NCBI RefSeq assembly: GCF_027111255.2
Contig: NZ_CP114285.2
Location: 1,302,001-1,366,000 of the forward strand
DNA: 64,000 nucleotides
Direction: 5' to 3'
Source: Flavobacterium flavigenum
GTDB lineage: Bacteria > Bacteroidota > Bacteroidia > Flavobacteriales > Flavobacteriaceae
Numbering within the stretch: the first letter of the stretch is position 1; every line of letters starts with the position of its first letter. Positions 59,602-64,000 of this stretch are shown here, piece after piece. Made by a program: the position numbers and the translations under genes. The notes under the pieces were generated by a model. That model did not search any database. It was not told the DNA's origin and was given only the letters and a program-made list of their open reading frames with translations.

Positions 59602-60639
59602 ATGATTTGGAAAGCTGGTATAATAAAGCATAAAAAGGAAAGCAGAATAAGTGTGTCTTTTGAAAAAAAAACCGAATTGATAAACCGGGTCAAACAAATT
59701 GAAGACGCAAGGTGGAGCCAAACATTAAAAATCTGGCATATTCCAGATACTATCGAAAACAGAATTCGATTTAAAATCGAATTGATTCCCACTCTTTCAT
59801 CAGAAGCAATTACACAAATTCAGAAATTTGCTGATTGGCTGAATTCAAAACGGTATAGTCCCAATACGATCAAAACTTATACAGAAGCATTAAAATCGTT
59901 TTTACTTTTTTTTAAAGAAAAGCCAGTAGCCGAAATTACCAATGAGGATGTTATTTGCTATAATAATCAATACATTCTTCAGAACAATTTGTCTTCTTCT
60001 TATCAAAACCAAATTGTAAATGCGATCAAATTATATTTTGCAACCGTATTAGACACCAAAATCGAAATAGATAAAATTCATCGCCCAAGACGGGAGAAAG
60101 TCTTACCGAATGTCCTGAGTAAAGAAGAAGTAAAACAAATTTTAAACGCCCATACCAATCTGAAACACAAAACAATGCTGAGTTTAATTTATAGTTGTGG
60201 TTTGCGAAGGAGCGAACTTATAAATTTAAAACCTACAGATATTGACTCAAAAAGAGGTATTGTCATTATTCGTCAAGGCAAAGGTAAAAAAGACAGAATT
60301 GTTCCTTTATCACAAAAAATATTACAAATGCTACGGGAATATTATTTAGGCTATAAACCTAAACTTTGGTTGTTTGAAGGGCAAAATGCAGGTGAAAAGT
60401 ATTCTGAATATAGTTTACAAAGTGTATTGAAACAAGCTCTTAAAAAAGTTGGAAACAAAAAACCTGTAACTCTTCACTGGCTTCGTCATAGCTATGCCAC
60501 ACATTTGCTTGAAAGCGGTACTGATTTAAGATTTATACAAGAATTATTAGGTCATAACAGCAGTAAAACAACTGAAGTATACACCCATGTAAGCACAAAA
60601 AGCTTACAGCAAATTAAAAGTCCCTTTGATGATTTGTAA
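59602..60639 (+). CDS. Tyrosine recombinase of the integron-like element
   Basis: The 345-residue recombinase has an N-terminal arm of about 60 residues, a SAM-like core-binding domain (about 68-150) and a catalytic domain. All active-site residues are present: R202 (CGLRRSEL), K227 (QGKGKKDR), H292 and R295 (HWLRHSYA), H318 (LLGHN) and nucleophile Y327 (VYTHVS). The C-terminus IKSPFDDL resembles IntI ends (RSPLDAL). The long IntI-specific insertion before the HxxR motif is missing, so it is closer to XerC/D-like enzymes. It lies immediately before a putative attI and four cassettes in the same orientation, the likely job being cassette insertion and excision. Confidence 0.88.
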   Translation: MIWKAGIIKHKKESRISVSFEKKTELINRVKQIEDARWSQTLKIWHIPDTIENRIRFKIELIPTLSSEAITQIQKFADWLNSKRYSPNTIKTYTEALKSFLLFFKEKPVAEITNEDVICYNNQYILQNNLSSSYQNQIVNAIKLYFATVLDTKIEIDKIHRPRREKVLPNVLSKEEVKQILNAHTNLKHKTMLSLIYSCGLRRSELINLKPTDIDSKRGIVIIRQGKGKKDRIVPLSQKILQMLREYYLGYKPKLWLFEGQNAGEKYSEYSLQSVLKQALKKVGNKKPVTLHWLRHSYATHLLESGTDLRFIQELLGHNSSKTTEVYTHVSTKSLQQIKSPFDDL

Positions 60640-60658
60640 ACATTTATTTATATATTCG
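60625..60658 (+). promoter_or_regulatory. Putative cassette-array promoter (Pc-like)
   Basis: TTTG (60,625-60,628), 22 nt, TATATTCG (60,651-60,658; one change from TAnnTTTG). It overlaps the 3' end of the recombinase gene and reads into the cassettes. The cassettes have no terminators of their own that I can see. Confidence 0.45.
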
Positions 60659-60679
60659 TATCCACAATAATATAATATT

Positions 60680-60748
60680 ATCACACATATCTGACCAAAT
60701 AAGGGGGCTATGTGTGATTTCATCACACATATAAATAAGTTGGGAGTA
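60680..60748 (+). other. Putative attI-like recombination site
   Basis: Two direct copies of ATCACACATAT (60,680-60,690 and 60,722-60,732) and one inverted (TATGTGTGAT at 60,709-60,718) precede the first cassette start GTTGGGAGTA (60,739-60,748). The last two form an 8-bp hairpin with a 3-nt loop. Direct repeats next to a simple GTT site resemble integrase-binding sites of attI. The exchange point would be between G60739 and T60740. Confidence 0.55.
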
Positions 60749-60795
60749 ATTGGCAGTAGACTACGGAGTTTCTTGCACAATAAATTTTCGGGATA

Positions 60796-60966
60796 TTTTT
60801 TTGGGATGTTTAAAGGATAAAGCATTTAGGCTTCAAGTCTTTCGATTGGGAATCGTAGAAAGTTCACTTTCAATACGTTTGACAACGTAAAAGACTTGGC
60901 GAAGTTATCGAAAATAAATGACAAAGTCAAGAACTTACTTTCGAAAACTTAAACATCCCAAAAAAA
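60796..60966 (+). ncRNA. Candidate structured RNA or hairpin element in cassette 1
   Basis: An 18-bp perfect inverted repeat (TTTTTTTGGGATGTTTAA at 60,796-60,813; complement at 60,949-60,966) encloses a nested structure. CAAGTCTTT at 60,834-60,842 pairs with AAAGACTTG and closes a junction (60,831-60,904) with three hairpins in a row: CGATT-GGG-AATCG, GAAAG-TTCA-CTTTC and ACGTT-TGAC-AACGT. No protein frame exists in this cassette. A further hairpin TAGCA-GGCT-TGCTA lies at about 61,001. Whether it is transcribed is unknown. Confidence 0.5.
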
Positions 60967-61126
60967 CAGCGCCCAAAAACCCCTATTATTGACTTCGCCT
61001 AGCAGGCTTGCTAAGCGCAATAAATAATTGGTTTCATTGATTTGGATTGTGTAGAAAGAAAAAGACAGGAGTAGTCTATCCAACTCCGTTACTGATTAAA
61101 ATATGGATTGTGTATAAGTCAGTAAC

Positions 61127-61267
61127 TACTCCCAACAGCGGCTATGAGAAATGCCTTCCGCTTTTTTTGGATAAAATAGTACAAATTGAAAAATTTGGCT
61201 ATTTTAGCTATTATTAGTGAAGCGGCAAAGAGAAGGCACTTCGCATAGCCGCGAAACGTTACCAGTA
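61127..61267 (+). other. attC-like site 1 (between cassettes 1 and 2)
   Basis: TACTCCCAAC (61,127-61,136), A, then GCGGCTATG... pairing over about 21 bp with ...CATAGCCGC (ending 61,252) with two mismatches, spacer GAAAC, then GTTACCAGTA (61,258-61,267). The left motif is the exact complement of the cassette 1 start at 60,739. The loop differs from sites 2, 3 and A. Confidence 0.78.
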
Positions 61268-61286
61268 ACCATAGAAAACCAACAGA

Positions 61287-61727
61287 ATGAGTGAAATTGA
61301 CAAAATTCTAAAAAAATATAACTGGCCAACAAAGGAATCAGAAGACGATTTAGATTTTAGTGAGATTGAGAATCGAATTGGGTTTACGTTGCCTGAAGAC
61401 TATAAAGAATTTCTCCGAAAGTATTCCTTTTACGAAACTCATATAGGAGAAGAATCATTCAAACTTTGGGACTTTGAAAAATTGTTGGAATGGAATGAAG
61501 GTTATGAAATAATTGAGAGCCTTAAAATGACTATTGGAATTGGAGACAACGGAGGTGGCGAATTTATCGGAATTGAAAAAATGGTTGACGGCAAAATCAG
61601 AACAGTTCTGACACCATTTATTGACCTTGACAAAGAATATCACATTGAGATTGGTATTTCATTCACAGACTTTCTAAAGAGAATGGACAACGGAGAAAAA
61701 TGGTTCAAAGAAAATGAAACGAAATAA
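61287..61727 (+). CDS. SMI1/KNR4 family (SUKH) protein
   Basis: The 146-residue protein fits the SMI1/KNR4 fold: IENRIGFTLPEDYKEFLRKY at about 26-45, the core strands IGIGDNGGGEFIGIE, and the final helix ISFTDFLKRM. In bacteria these are mostly immunity proteins against secreted or contact-dependent toxins. It is the only gene of cassette 2, starting 29 bp after the cassette boundary; no toxin is adjacent, as is common for orphan immunity genes carried in cassettes. Confidence 0.88.
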   Translation: MSEIDKILKKYNWPTKESEDDLDFSEIENRIGFTLPEDYKEFLRKYSFYETHIGEESFKLWDFEKLLEWNEGYEIIESLKMTIGIGDNGGGEFIGIEKMVDGKIRTVLTPFIDLDKEYHIEIGISFTDFLKRMDNGEKWFKENETK

Positions 61728-61734
61728 AAATGGC

Positions 61735-61873
61735 TACTGGTAACAGCTACTACAACGGATTTGGGCAATAGGTTTAGTGGAAAGTTGGTTTTGTACTTGG
61801 AATGATTGGGCAAATCCGAAGAATGGGCTTAATTTAATCCCAAACCCGCTGTAGTAGCGACACGTTAGCGGAT
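61735..61873 (+). other. attC-like site 2 (between cassettes 2 and 3)
   Basis: TACTGGTAAC (61,735-61,744), A, a 20-nt arm GCTACTACAACGGATTTGGG (61,746-61,765) pairing with 61,839-61,858 at 18 of 20 positions (the other two G-T compatible), spacer GACAC, then GTTAGCGGAT (61,864-61,873). The left motif is the exact complement of the cassette 2 start. Confidence 0.85.
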
Positions 61874-61904
61874 AGTTTGAGACAAAATTGCAAATAAGAC
61901 AAAC

Positions 61905-62522
61905 ATGAAAATAAAATTCACTTTTTTAATTCTAATTATACTTCAACTTTCGTGTAAAAACAATACCGATAAACAAGAAGATACTTGGAATAATAGAATT
62001 CAGGAATTTGAATCTCAAAAGGAAAAGACTAAAAAATTTGATTTTGAAGAATTCGAAATATTAAAAGGACAAGTTGGTGATATAAAAATTGGAATGAATA
62101 TTAAAGATGCAGAAGAAAAACTAAATGAATTAACCAAAAAGGAAGCCGAAGCATATGATTTTGGTTTTGATGGTGGAGGAAAAGCATACATTTATTCATT
62201 GGAAAACGAACCTATTTTAGCACTAATTCCTAAAAGGGATTCTGAAGAAATATTAGTCATTATTGCTCTGAGTAAAAATCTAAAAACAAATAATGACCTA
62301 AATCCGAAATCTAAAGTGACAGAAATACAAGCGAAATATCCAAATATTGAAATAAATCAAGATTTAATGATGGGTTGGGAATTTATGTCCGATAAGAAAA
62401 ATAATTGGGACTTTGTATTTATGACAGAAGAAAATAGCAGAATTGGAGAATATAAAGAAATTGAAGTTCCAACAAAGCCTAAAAGAACTGAAACGAAAAT
62501 GGACTGGATCACAGTTAAATAA
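61905..62522 (+). CDS. Hypothetical lipoprotein (cassette 3)
   Basis: The 205-residue protein has a lipobox ending QLSCKNN (Cys at about 17), an acidic coiled region, and a beta-rich body with GDIKIGMNIKDAEEKL, a pattern seen in small periplasmic or surface lipoproteins of Bacteroidota. It is the single gene of cassette 3, beginning 41 bp after GTTAGCGGAT. Function unknown. Confidence 0.72.
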   Translation: MKIKFTFLILIILQLSCKNNTDKQEDTWNNRIQEFESQKEKTKKFDFEEFEILKGQVGDIKIGMNIKDAEEKLNELTKKEAEAYDFGFDGGGKAYIYSLENEPILALIPKRDSEEILVIIALSKNLKTNNDLNPKSKVTEIQAKYPNIEINQDLMMGWEFMSDKKNNWDFVFMTEENSRIGEYKEIEVPTKPKRTETKMDWITVK

Positions 62523-62528
62523 AAAACC

Positions 62529-62667
62529 ATCCGCTAACACTTGCTACAAGAGATTTGGGCATTTGGCTTAATTTAAAAATGGTCTTGTACTTGGGAAGTT
62601 TAGGCAAATCCGAAAATAGAGCTTAATTTAACCCCAAACCTCTTGTAGCAAGGGAACGTTAGCTGCA
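62529..62667 (+). other. attC-like site 3 (between cassettes 3 and 4)
   Basis: ATCCGCTAAC (62,529-62,538), A, a 20-nt arm CTTGCTACAAGAGATTTGGG (62,540-62,559) pairing with 62,633-62,652 with one mismatch, spacer GGAAC, then GTTAGCTGCA (62,658-62,667). The left motif is the exact complement of the cassette 3 start. Its loop shares TTTGGCTTAATTTAAAAA with site A and GGCAAATCCGAA with site 2. Confidence 0.87.
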
Positions 62668-62694
62668 AGATTACCTCCCAATAAACCAAATCAA

Positions 62695-64000
62695 ATGAAT
62701 AAAGAAGAAATATTAAATTTAATAGTTGAAAAGCAAAATCATATAAAAATAATTAAAGAAAAATTTGAAGCATTAGATTTCGAAGACGACAAATTATGTG
62801 AATATTACAAAGAACTAAGTTTTACTGAAAACTATTTATTTGACATTTCTAAAGAATTGGAGGATGAAATAATCCCGAAAATATTTTATAAGAAGATATA
62901 CAATAACATTTCAGCAGTAAATACTAATAATTTATTTAATACATTAAACAATCCAAATTATGTAGTAAATACCGATAGTTTAAAAACTTATTGTGAACAT
63001 AATAAGTTAAATACAATAGGAGCGTTTGTTACTTACAAATTTTATAAAGACTTAGGTTTTTTTACAGAAAATATTGTTGTTGTTGGCGCAAATGGTTCAG
63101 GTAAATCAACTTTAGCAAATAATCTTAAGACAGTAATTGACGAGAAAGATGGTATTGTTATTCCTGCCCAAAAATTATTGATTATTCCAACTTTTGATAA
63201 CACACCTAATTACAATAGTTCAAGTAAAGAATATGATGATTATCAAAAAAATTATAGGGACAATAAAGTAACTTATAATGCGTCAAAAACTGACGACATT
63301 CCATATTCAGAAACAAAAAAATATGGCTCTGAATATAAGTATGTTTTAAAAACATTAATAGCTGAAAGAGCACATATTAGAAATACATTCTGTACAAATT
63401 TTTCTAAAGATTTAGAAGTTAATAAGGATGATTTACACAGCAAATTGGATACTGCTATCGAAATTTGGAACTCATTAATCGAACATCGAGAAATGTTTTT
63501 TAATGAAAGTAATGAACTGATGATTAAAGATCCCTCAAATGGAAACGATTACCCTGCTTATAAAATGAGTGATGGTGAAAAGAATATACTTTACTTAATC
63601 GGTCGAGTTTTATTGACGAATACCAATTCATTAATTATAATTGACGAACCAGAAATGTATCTTCACAAAGCAATTGTGAATAAACTTTGGGATAAATTAG
63701 AAGTTCTAAAACAAGATTGCATCTTTGTATATTTAAGTCACGATTTGGATTTTGCTTCTTCAAGAAAAGCTCAAAAATATTGGATTAAGAATTTTCAGTT
63801 TCCAATAAATTGGGACATAGAAAATATTCCTGAAAACGATATCCCTGAAAATCTTCTAATGAAACTTTTGGGTAGTAGAAAGCGAATTCTATTTTGTGAA
63901 GGAAAAATTAATAGTCTAGACATAAAGATATTTGAAATATTATTTCCGAATTTCACAATAACCCCATTATCCAGCTGTAAAGATGTAATTAATTATGTAC
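62695..64000 (+). CDS. AAA ATPase-TOPRIM protein resembling fused PARIS (partial at right edge)
   Basis: The open frame runs 435 codons to the window end. It has a helical N-terminus (about 1-125), Walker A GANGSGKST (G131-T139), an ABC-like signature KMSDGEKN, Walker B LIIIDEPEMYLH (D317, E318), a switch SHDLDF, and then ILFCEGKINSLDIKIFEILF with the TOPRIM glutamate E402. An AAA15-type ATPase joined to DUF4435/TOPRIM is the layout of fused AriA-AriB (PARIS) anti-phage proteins; OLD-type nucleases are the main alternative. It is the gene of cassette 4, starting 37 bp after the boundary. The key TOPRIM DxD lies outside the window. Confidence 0.72.
   Translation, partial: MNKEEILNLIVEKQNHIKIIKEKFEALDFEDDKLCEYYKELSFTENYLFDISKELEDEIIPKIFYKKIYNNISAVNTNNLFNTLNNPNYVVNTDSLKTYCEHNKLNTIGAFVTYKFYKDLGFFTENIVVVGANGSGKSTLANNLKTVIDEKDGIVIPAQKLLIIPTFDNTPNYNSSSKEYDDYQKNYRDNKVTYNASKTDDIPYSETKKYGSEYKYVLKTLIAERAHIRNTFCTNFSKDLEVNKDDLHSKLDTAIEIWNSLIEHREMFFNESNELMIKDPSNGNDYPAYKMSDGEKNILYLIGRVLLTNTNSLIIIDEPEMYLHKAIVNKLWDKLEVLKQDCIFVYLSHDLDFASSRKAQKYWIKNFQFPINWDIENIPENDIPENLLMKLLGSRKRILFCEGKINSLDIKIFEILFPNFTITPLSSCKDVINYV

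Follow-up and report, generated by a model that had tools for sequence, protein, structure and literature searches.

Integrons built around the integrase IntI combine an integrase gene, an adjoining attI site, and a head-to-tail array of mostly single-gene cassettes in one orientation, with recombination sites (attC) that fold as one strand. In these canonical integrons, crossover takes place at G^TT and the two ends of one cassette are complementary; arrays lacking an integrase also occur. A more distant point of comparison is archaeal XerA, which resolves chromosome dimers. Here, we analyzed a stretch of 64,000 nucleotides (nt) from Flavobacterium flavigenum, referred to below as the window (assembly GCF_027111255.2, contig NZ_CP114285.2, genome positions 1,302,001–1,366,000 of a single-contig 5.43 Mb genome), in which all of these integron features recur around a tyrosine recombinase without the IntI-specific insert. 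Judging from its anatomy, this locus is very probably an integron-like gene-cassette system, i.e., an insertless integrase, an attI-like site, and a head-to-tail array, which likely captures, excises, and reshuffles cassettes at G^TT.

The IntI insert and the extrahelical bases of attC are held to be the adaptations enabling a tyrosine recombinase to use a folded single strand (PMC4792948). Bacteroidota are named among integron-bearing phyla in reviews and surveys (PMC8618304, PMC9668308, PMC2426708), and the IntegronFinder 2 paper names one complete Bacteroidetes integron, that of Salinibacter ruber (PMC9024848). The original prediction, made from the letters of the window, knew of no characterized Bacteroidota system: integrons were already listed in the phylum according to these texts, while a literature search (with subscription papers and preprints outside its scope) returned, in the text portions it covered, no earlier description of the present cassette system or of its link to resistance genes.

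An insertless integrase precedes a cassette array

As had been proposed, the window carries a tyrosine recombinase followed by at least four head-to-tail cassettes. Behind the integrase gene (59602–60639; 345 amino acids, aa; Pfam PF00589 at 144.8 bits) come a leader of 100 nt and then the cassettes, all in one orientation on the + strand. Cassette 1 (60740–61258, opening at G60739) holds no sense open reading frame (ORF) of 50 aa ahead of its closing site at 61134–61260. Cassette 2 (61259–61864, opening at G61258) encodes a SUKH/SMI1-KNR4 protein (61287–61727) and is closed by a site at 61742–61866, while cassette 3 (61865–62658, opening at G61864) encodes a 205-aa protein without a Pfam match (61905–62522), ahead of a site at 62536–62660. 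Cassette 4 (62659–64000 and onwards past the window end, opening at G62658) encodes a 631-aa AAA/ABC-type ATPase from 62695. The three sites in the window run from AAC to GTT over 125–127 nt each. Beyond the window, the array extends to approximately genome position 1,373,209, for a total of seven sites recognized by a covariance model and two truncated sites recognized by eye; the closing site of cassette 4 lies there, and its end pairing is kept (GTTAGCTGCA).

The integrase itself departs from IntI. Near patch III, where IntI carries its insert, two conserved motifs are separated by 58–59 residues in all 120 family rows (119 of 123 loci, with the window protein counted twice and four loci left out for short frames), compared to 100 residues in all 20 canonical IntI rows (19 genes). 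The window integrase reaches 211.4 bits against the curated integron-integrase model TIGR02249, below the cut-off of 265, with the match split over two stretches. In a tree, the family forms a single clade (support 98/100, 25 rows) beside IntI (100/99), and both lie on one side of the XerC/XerD-like proteins of the source genome (99/96), which encodes further Xer-like proteins besides the window integrase; because branches are long and archaeal XerA is not among the rows, a sister relation to IntI is tentative. A C-terminal SPxD motif is common to the family (109/119) and IntI (20/20). Archaeal XerA (PDB 4a8e and 5hxy) shares the catalytic and core-binding domains, at 34 and 31% identity, but the new system differs from it in having an N-terminal domain, an attI, and a cassette array. 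A search of phage records yielded 64 matches, none of them at ≥60% identity.

This extra N-terminal domain, which sets the family apart from IntI as well, is encoded at approximately 59602–59775 (+ strand; residues ~1–58) and contains two invariant tryptophans, W38 and W45. The predicted model gives a beta-beta-alpha-beta-beta-alpha fold (block pLDDT 82–89 for residues 1–60). In Foldseek, the first-ranked match, which does not reach significance, is the HARP domain of SMARCAL1, an annealing helicase, and the SMARCAL1 structure 4o66 is not among the VIA-align matches listed for this domain. Pfam HARP (PF07443) matches 2 of 26 N-terminal domains and DUF5710 matches 13 of 26, all weakly.

Both ends of a cassette pair with each other

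The opening of an intact cassette pairs with the bases just before its own closing stem. The original prediction had quoted exact pairing over 10 bases in three cassettes, and the quoted ends are right; the pairing in fact reaches ~15 nt, interrupted by a single fixed mismatch at position 11. Across 41 loci (the window array and 40 stretches of relatives), 42 of 54 neighboring site pairs match at ≥6 of 7 bases behind GTT, while random re-pairing of the same 54 pairs yields a mean of 2.7 matching pairs and a maximum of 10 in 2000 shuffles. Chance is therefore excluded as the source of end pairing, in line with the initial view that it would be hard to explain in this way. As also anticipated, the left and right motifs within one site do not match each other beyond chance level (3.09 of 7 bases, n = 82, compared to 2.90 for re-paired ends). 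The pairing likewise holds in further predicted cassettes: in the five arrays of the source genome, 20 of 25 neighboring pairs match. Of the five others, three have an insertion sequence (IS) at the opening, one is separated by a truncated site, and the last (L179) is a plain failure.

These 54 and 25 pairs are the unselected tests of end pairing. Statistics on the paired ends (hereafter “R box”), folding, core sites, and ORFs come from a set of 177 cassettes selected for paired ends, which comprises 160 distinct end pairs and 172 distinct junctions, so that pairing at positions 4–10 in this set results from selection, while positions 11 and 12–15 were not used for picking. Of the 160 cassettes, 81–91% pair at positions 12–15, and none pairs at position 11, which is an A against a C in 130 of them; approximately 24 of the 160 R boxes resemble a one-base bulge near position 10–11. 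Some of the named loci and genomes are the same contigs (e.g., L047/L090 and L044/L086), and such duplicates are removed only in counts given here as distinct.

attC-like sites form a covarying stem and favor the bottom strand

Each site consists of AAC, one unpaired base, a ~20-bp stem enclosing a loop of ~70 nt, five bases, and GTT, with a right spacer 4 nt longer than the left. Sites were correctly predicted, but not their size: the body is ~124 nt rather than ~140 bp, and most sites measure 122–127 nt. In an alignment of 146 distinct sites, the 18 pairs of the stem are formed in 95.1% of cells, compared to 57.5% when shuffled and ≤40.2% when slid, a count biased by the fitting of this alignment to the covariance model (which was not used in aligning the 49 founding sites). 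Stem covariation over the 146 distinct sites is 0.854 vs 0.193.

Position 15 of the stem, an A on the left and a C on the right in 134 of 145 sites, does not pair, and such A–C mispairs turn into T–G wobbles on the bottom strand. When the predicted circle junctions were folded with DNA energies, the bottom strand was the more stable in 169 of 172 cases, and in all 172 when the arms were considered alone; the bottom strand is the better folder because of the conserved A–C mispairs. Overall, the covarying stem, the end pairing, and this strand preference provide computational support for single-strand folding with two boxes. Where canonical attC carries two extrahelical bases, the new system appears to have these fixed A–C mispairs. 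Its core also differs: the canonical core sites GTTRRRY/RYYYAAC (as defined in PMC3053210) are present, on either side, in only 10 of 160 distinct cassettes, and nearly any sequence occurs instead, provided that it pairs with the other end of the cassette over ~15 nt. The ORFs within cassettes mostly follow the array direction (154 of 177 sense), starting a median of 39 nt behind G^TT and stopping a median of 17 nt before AAC.

The attI-like leader contains a covarying hairpin

The leader between the integrase and the first cassette (60640–60739, + strand) ends in TATAAATAAG^TT. Behind the integrase, TATANNNNAG followed by TT or AT was found in 112 of 123 loci, compared to 24 of 1980 control upstream windows. 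Upstream of this motif lies a 7-nt inverted repeat (4.79 of 7 bases paired vs 2.70 when re-paired, 108 distinct loci), represented in the window by X2 (TCACACA, 60723–60729, + strand) and X′ (60711–60717, − strand), which pair across 5 nt and covary among genomes; a third, direct copy lies ~43 nt further upstream (X1, TCACACA, 60681–60687, + strand). Over 67 distinct leaders, the hairpin is 73.8% paired vs 52.2%, with a covariation of 0.578 vs 0.226. This covarying hairpin, and an integrase read in the array direction, are further differences from IntI systems. Conservation of the attI side extends to the G, behind which the cassettes vary among genomes; the expected variation at G^TT is thus seen, in a comparison of one genome per species.

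TAnnTTTG, a promoter-like motif, occurs in 59 of 108 leaders (compared to 379 of 4403 control windows), mostly 81–100 nt before G^TT, and is found upstream of 10 of 154 cassette ORFs. At six loci, attI is separated from the first gene cassette by a GC-rich element of ~190 nt that forms strong hairpins and has no apparent gene. The junction reads AG^ATG at L044, L085, L052, and L080, and AG^TTGGG at L083 and L120, with L085 and L080 cut by the contig end; at L084, attI is followed by an ordinary cassette.

Integrase and sites are widespread, and cassettes recur between arrays

Next, we considered the distribution of the system. Of 8000 candidate integrase proteins scored, at least 7999 pass an E-value of 1e−30. 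At stricter thresholds, the integrase is present in 80 of 150 genus genomes (E ≤ 1e−60) and 59 of 295 class genomes (E ≤ 1e−85), while the new covariance model, i.e., the custom site model that the original prediction had called for, detects sites at E ≤ 0.01 in 135 of the 150 genus genomes and at E ≤ 1e−8 in 60 of 118 phylum genomes; per-genome site counts are lower bounds. Given its presence in so many class and phylum genomes, the system is not an oddity of one strain. Sites lie behind the integrase: across 82 loci (80 genome contigs and 2 plasmids), 95 sites were found in 366 kb downstream vs 3 in 710 kb upstream. A contig end occurs within 3 kb downstream at 41 loci and upstream at 4, a bias that repeats would produce. 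Canonical IntI exceeds its cut-off in 105 of 395 GTDB-phylum genomes; among those marked as the same class or nearer, we noticed G184 alone. No site was found by the new model in eight canonical-integron loci. Two Chryseobacterium plasmids, NZ_CP041688 (L083) and NZ_CP094530 (L084), also carry the integrase, followed by several sites in the former and by a methyltransferase and helicase gene set in the latter.

Several arrays share cassettes. Those at 5.19, 0.72, and 0.34 Mb in the source genome start at attI. Two cassettes are common to the 5.19- and 0.72-Mb arrays at 100% identity, one of 1331 bp and one of 726 bp that the 0.72-Mb array contains twice; a 548-bp cassette is present twice, 100% identical, in the 0.72-Mb array, and the 5.19-Mb array opens with a 520-bp cassette identical to cassette 1 of the window. 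These repeated cassettes have unlike neighbors, and identity stops at the GTT core. One cassette recurs across genera, with 96.9% identity over 1050 bp between Flavobacterium fragile, where it comes first, at attI, and Belliella pelovolcani, where it lies within an array. The same cassette is found on the Riemerella anatipestifer plasmid pRCAD0416RA-1 (1052/1053 bp, 96.8%), annotated there as lnu(I).

Cassettes carry diverse cargo, including resistance genes

A Pfam scan of 86 cassette proteins returned, among other families, lincosamide nucleotidyltransferase-like, beta-lactamase-like, SUKH, TPR, and DUF members, with 1–3 members each among the 25 of 42 families listed. With PADLOC, 34 families match cassette proteins, with 1–2 members each among the 25 listed. 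The Riemerella plasmid stretch has 12 sites (E-values of 1e−9 to 1e−18), among which lie aadS, ere(D), two tet(X), lnu(I), blaOXA, estT, and two phosphotransferase genes; 7 of the 8 sites seen by both methods have a paired opening.

A related arrangement is found in the xerD-tet(X3)-res-ISCR2 unit of Acinetobacter, for which ISCR2 is given as the vehicle in PMC8635130. On plasmid p18TQ-X3, tet(X3) is preceded by a cut relative of the integrase, the “xerD” of this unit (48% over residues 78–345), and starts at ..CTTG^TTATGTGCCATTTT, i.e., the opening of the Riemerella tet(X) cassettes. Unlike in the arrays described above, the integrase is a fragment there, and only half of an attC is left behind tet(X3), its end unpaired with the opening. 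These observations bear on the question, raised in PMC7473080, of whether the xerD beside tet(X) mobilizes tet(X) genes; the same source reports for tet(X14) no predicted adjoining integron and a xerD reading in the opposite direction.

A possible mechanism, and competing explanations

From this anatomy we infer circles, strand choice, what the mispairs and the N-terminal domain do, action in trans, and promoter use. Specifically, the bottom strand of an excised circular cassette would fold into one hairpin, in which the joined ends form the R box and the stem of the site forms an “L box”. The integrase would bind both boxes, and crossover at G^TT would recombine the R box with attI or with another site. 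As T–G wobbles on the bottom strand, the fixed A–C mispairs may mark that strand and thereby replace the extrahelical bases found in canonical attC. The first cassettes are likely transcribed from a promoter within the attI leader, and a single integrase likely serves several arrays in trans.

A number of observations weigh against this interpretation. No excision, insertion, or circle was observed, so that all activity is deduced from sequence. Of the 123 loci, 11 lack the attI motif, and a small number of its 112 occurrences may be chance matches; TAnnTTTG is found in only 59 of the 108 leaders, the window leader having the variant TATATTCG. No downstream site was found by the inverted-repeat detector at 46 of the 82 loci, 37 of which have <3 kb of contig left and nine of which do not. 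Sites occur in more genus genomes than the integrase (135 vs 80 of 150), and there is no recognizable integrase in the stretch searched before attI of the 5.19-, 0.72-, and 0.34-Mb arrays, nor any convincing match to integrase remnants before attI of arrays L177 and L178; action in trans or past activity must therefore be assumed. Finally, some genomes outside the class (e.g., G155, G173, and G185) contain a canonical IntI as well as sites detected by the new model, on separate contigs, so the sites may not be tied everywhere to the insertless integrase.

The locus could also be a canonical integron that has merely diverged, losing the insert and the extrahelical bases while otherwise typical of its class. 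Its position with IntI on one side of the Xer-like proteins, the shared SPxD motif, and the 105 phylum genomes with canonical IntI all speak for such an origin. Yet the family forms one clade of its own, the insert is absent in all 119 loci compared, GTTRRRY is confined to 10 of 160 cassettes, and canonical loci go unseen by the site model, so that we regard this explanation as rather unlikely. The integron-like character suggested by the original prediction is thus supported, but the system departs from canonical integrons in two defining features, the IntI insert and the GTTRRRY core.

It is far less probable that the recombinase is a bystander and that cassettes are moved by an IS or by homologous recombination between repeated attC bodies. 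The bodies within one array can indeed be alike, and an IS1182-family element is found in attC cores, but what lies left of the repeated cassettes is attI or differing attC bodies with few shared bases by the core, both cassette ends fall at the GTT core, and arrays begin behind the recombinase, not before it. We give even less credit to a housekeeping Xer resolving chromosome dimers next to an array by coincidence, given the other Xer-like proteins in the same genome, the restriction of the family to 59 of 295 class genomes, and the attI and array that follow the recombinase across the phylum.

Beyond an integron-like system as such, we find it probable that the locus represents a second, phylum-wide kind of Bacteroidota integron. 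Strand choice and hairpin recognition would here be achieved without the IntI insert or extrahelical bases, via a mispair code in a private 15-bp R box and a 20-bp L box, a fork-DNA-binding-like N-terminal domain, and a hairpin attI. The same system would also be an unrecognized mobilizer of tet(X), lnu(I), aadS, ere(D), estT, and blaOXA in bacteria associated with animals and humans, and the “xerD” beside tet(X3) would be its integrase. A large insertless clade would make the proposed adaptive role of the IntI insert testable and would represent a second way to build an integron. Half of the phylum genomes sampled contain sites, so a large cassette reservoir appears uncounted, and standard surveys appear to have largely missed the system.

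Other elements associated with the arrays

An IS1182-family element seems to home to attC-core sites. All four full copies found in the source genome sit in the attC-core ACGT, at the same place and in the same orientation (genome positions 1366729, 1369180, 723483, and 5206680, i.e., L011:6729, L011:9180, L178:9483, and L177:16680). An end of the element is also found at L011:13210 and L180:4762, and like ends occur in relatives (L051 and L082). In a comparison of source-genome arrays L011, L177, and L178 to Rfam at gathering scores, no family matched the attC-like sites, and the only matches were two Flavo-1 RNAs (RF01705). These lie at L177:1470–1545 and L178:3123–3225, ~160–310 nt upstream of attI in two arrays that have no recognizable integrase.

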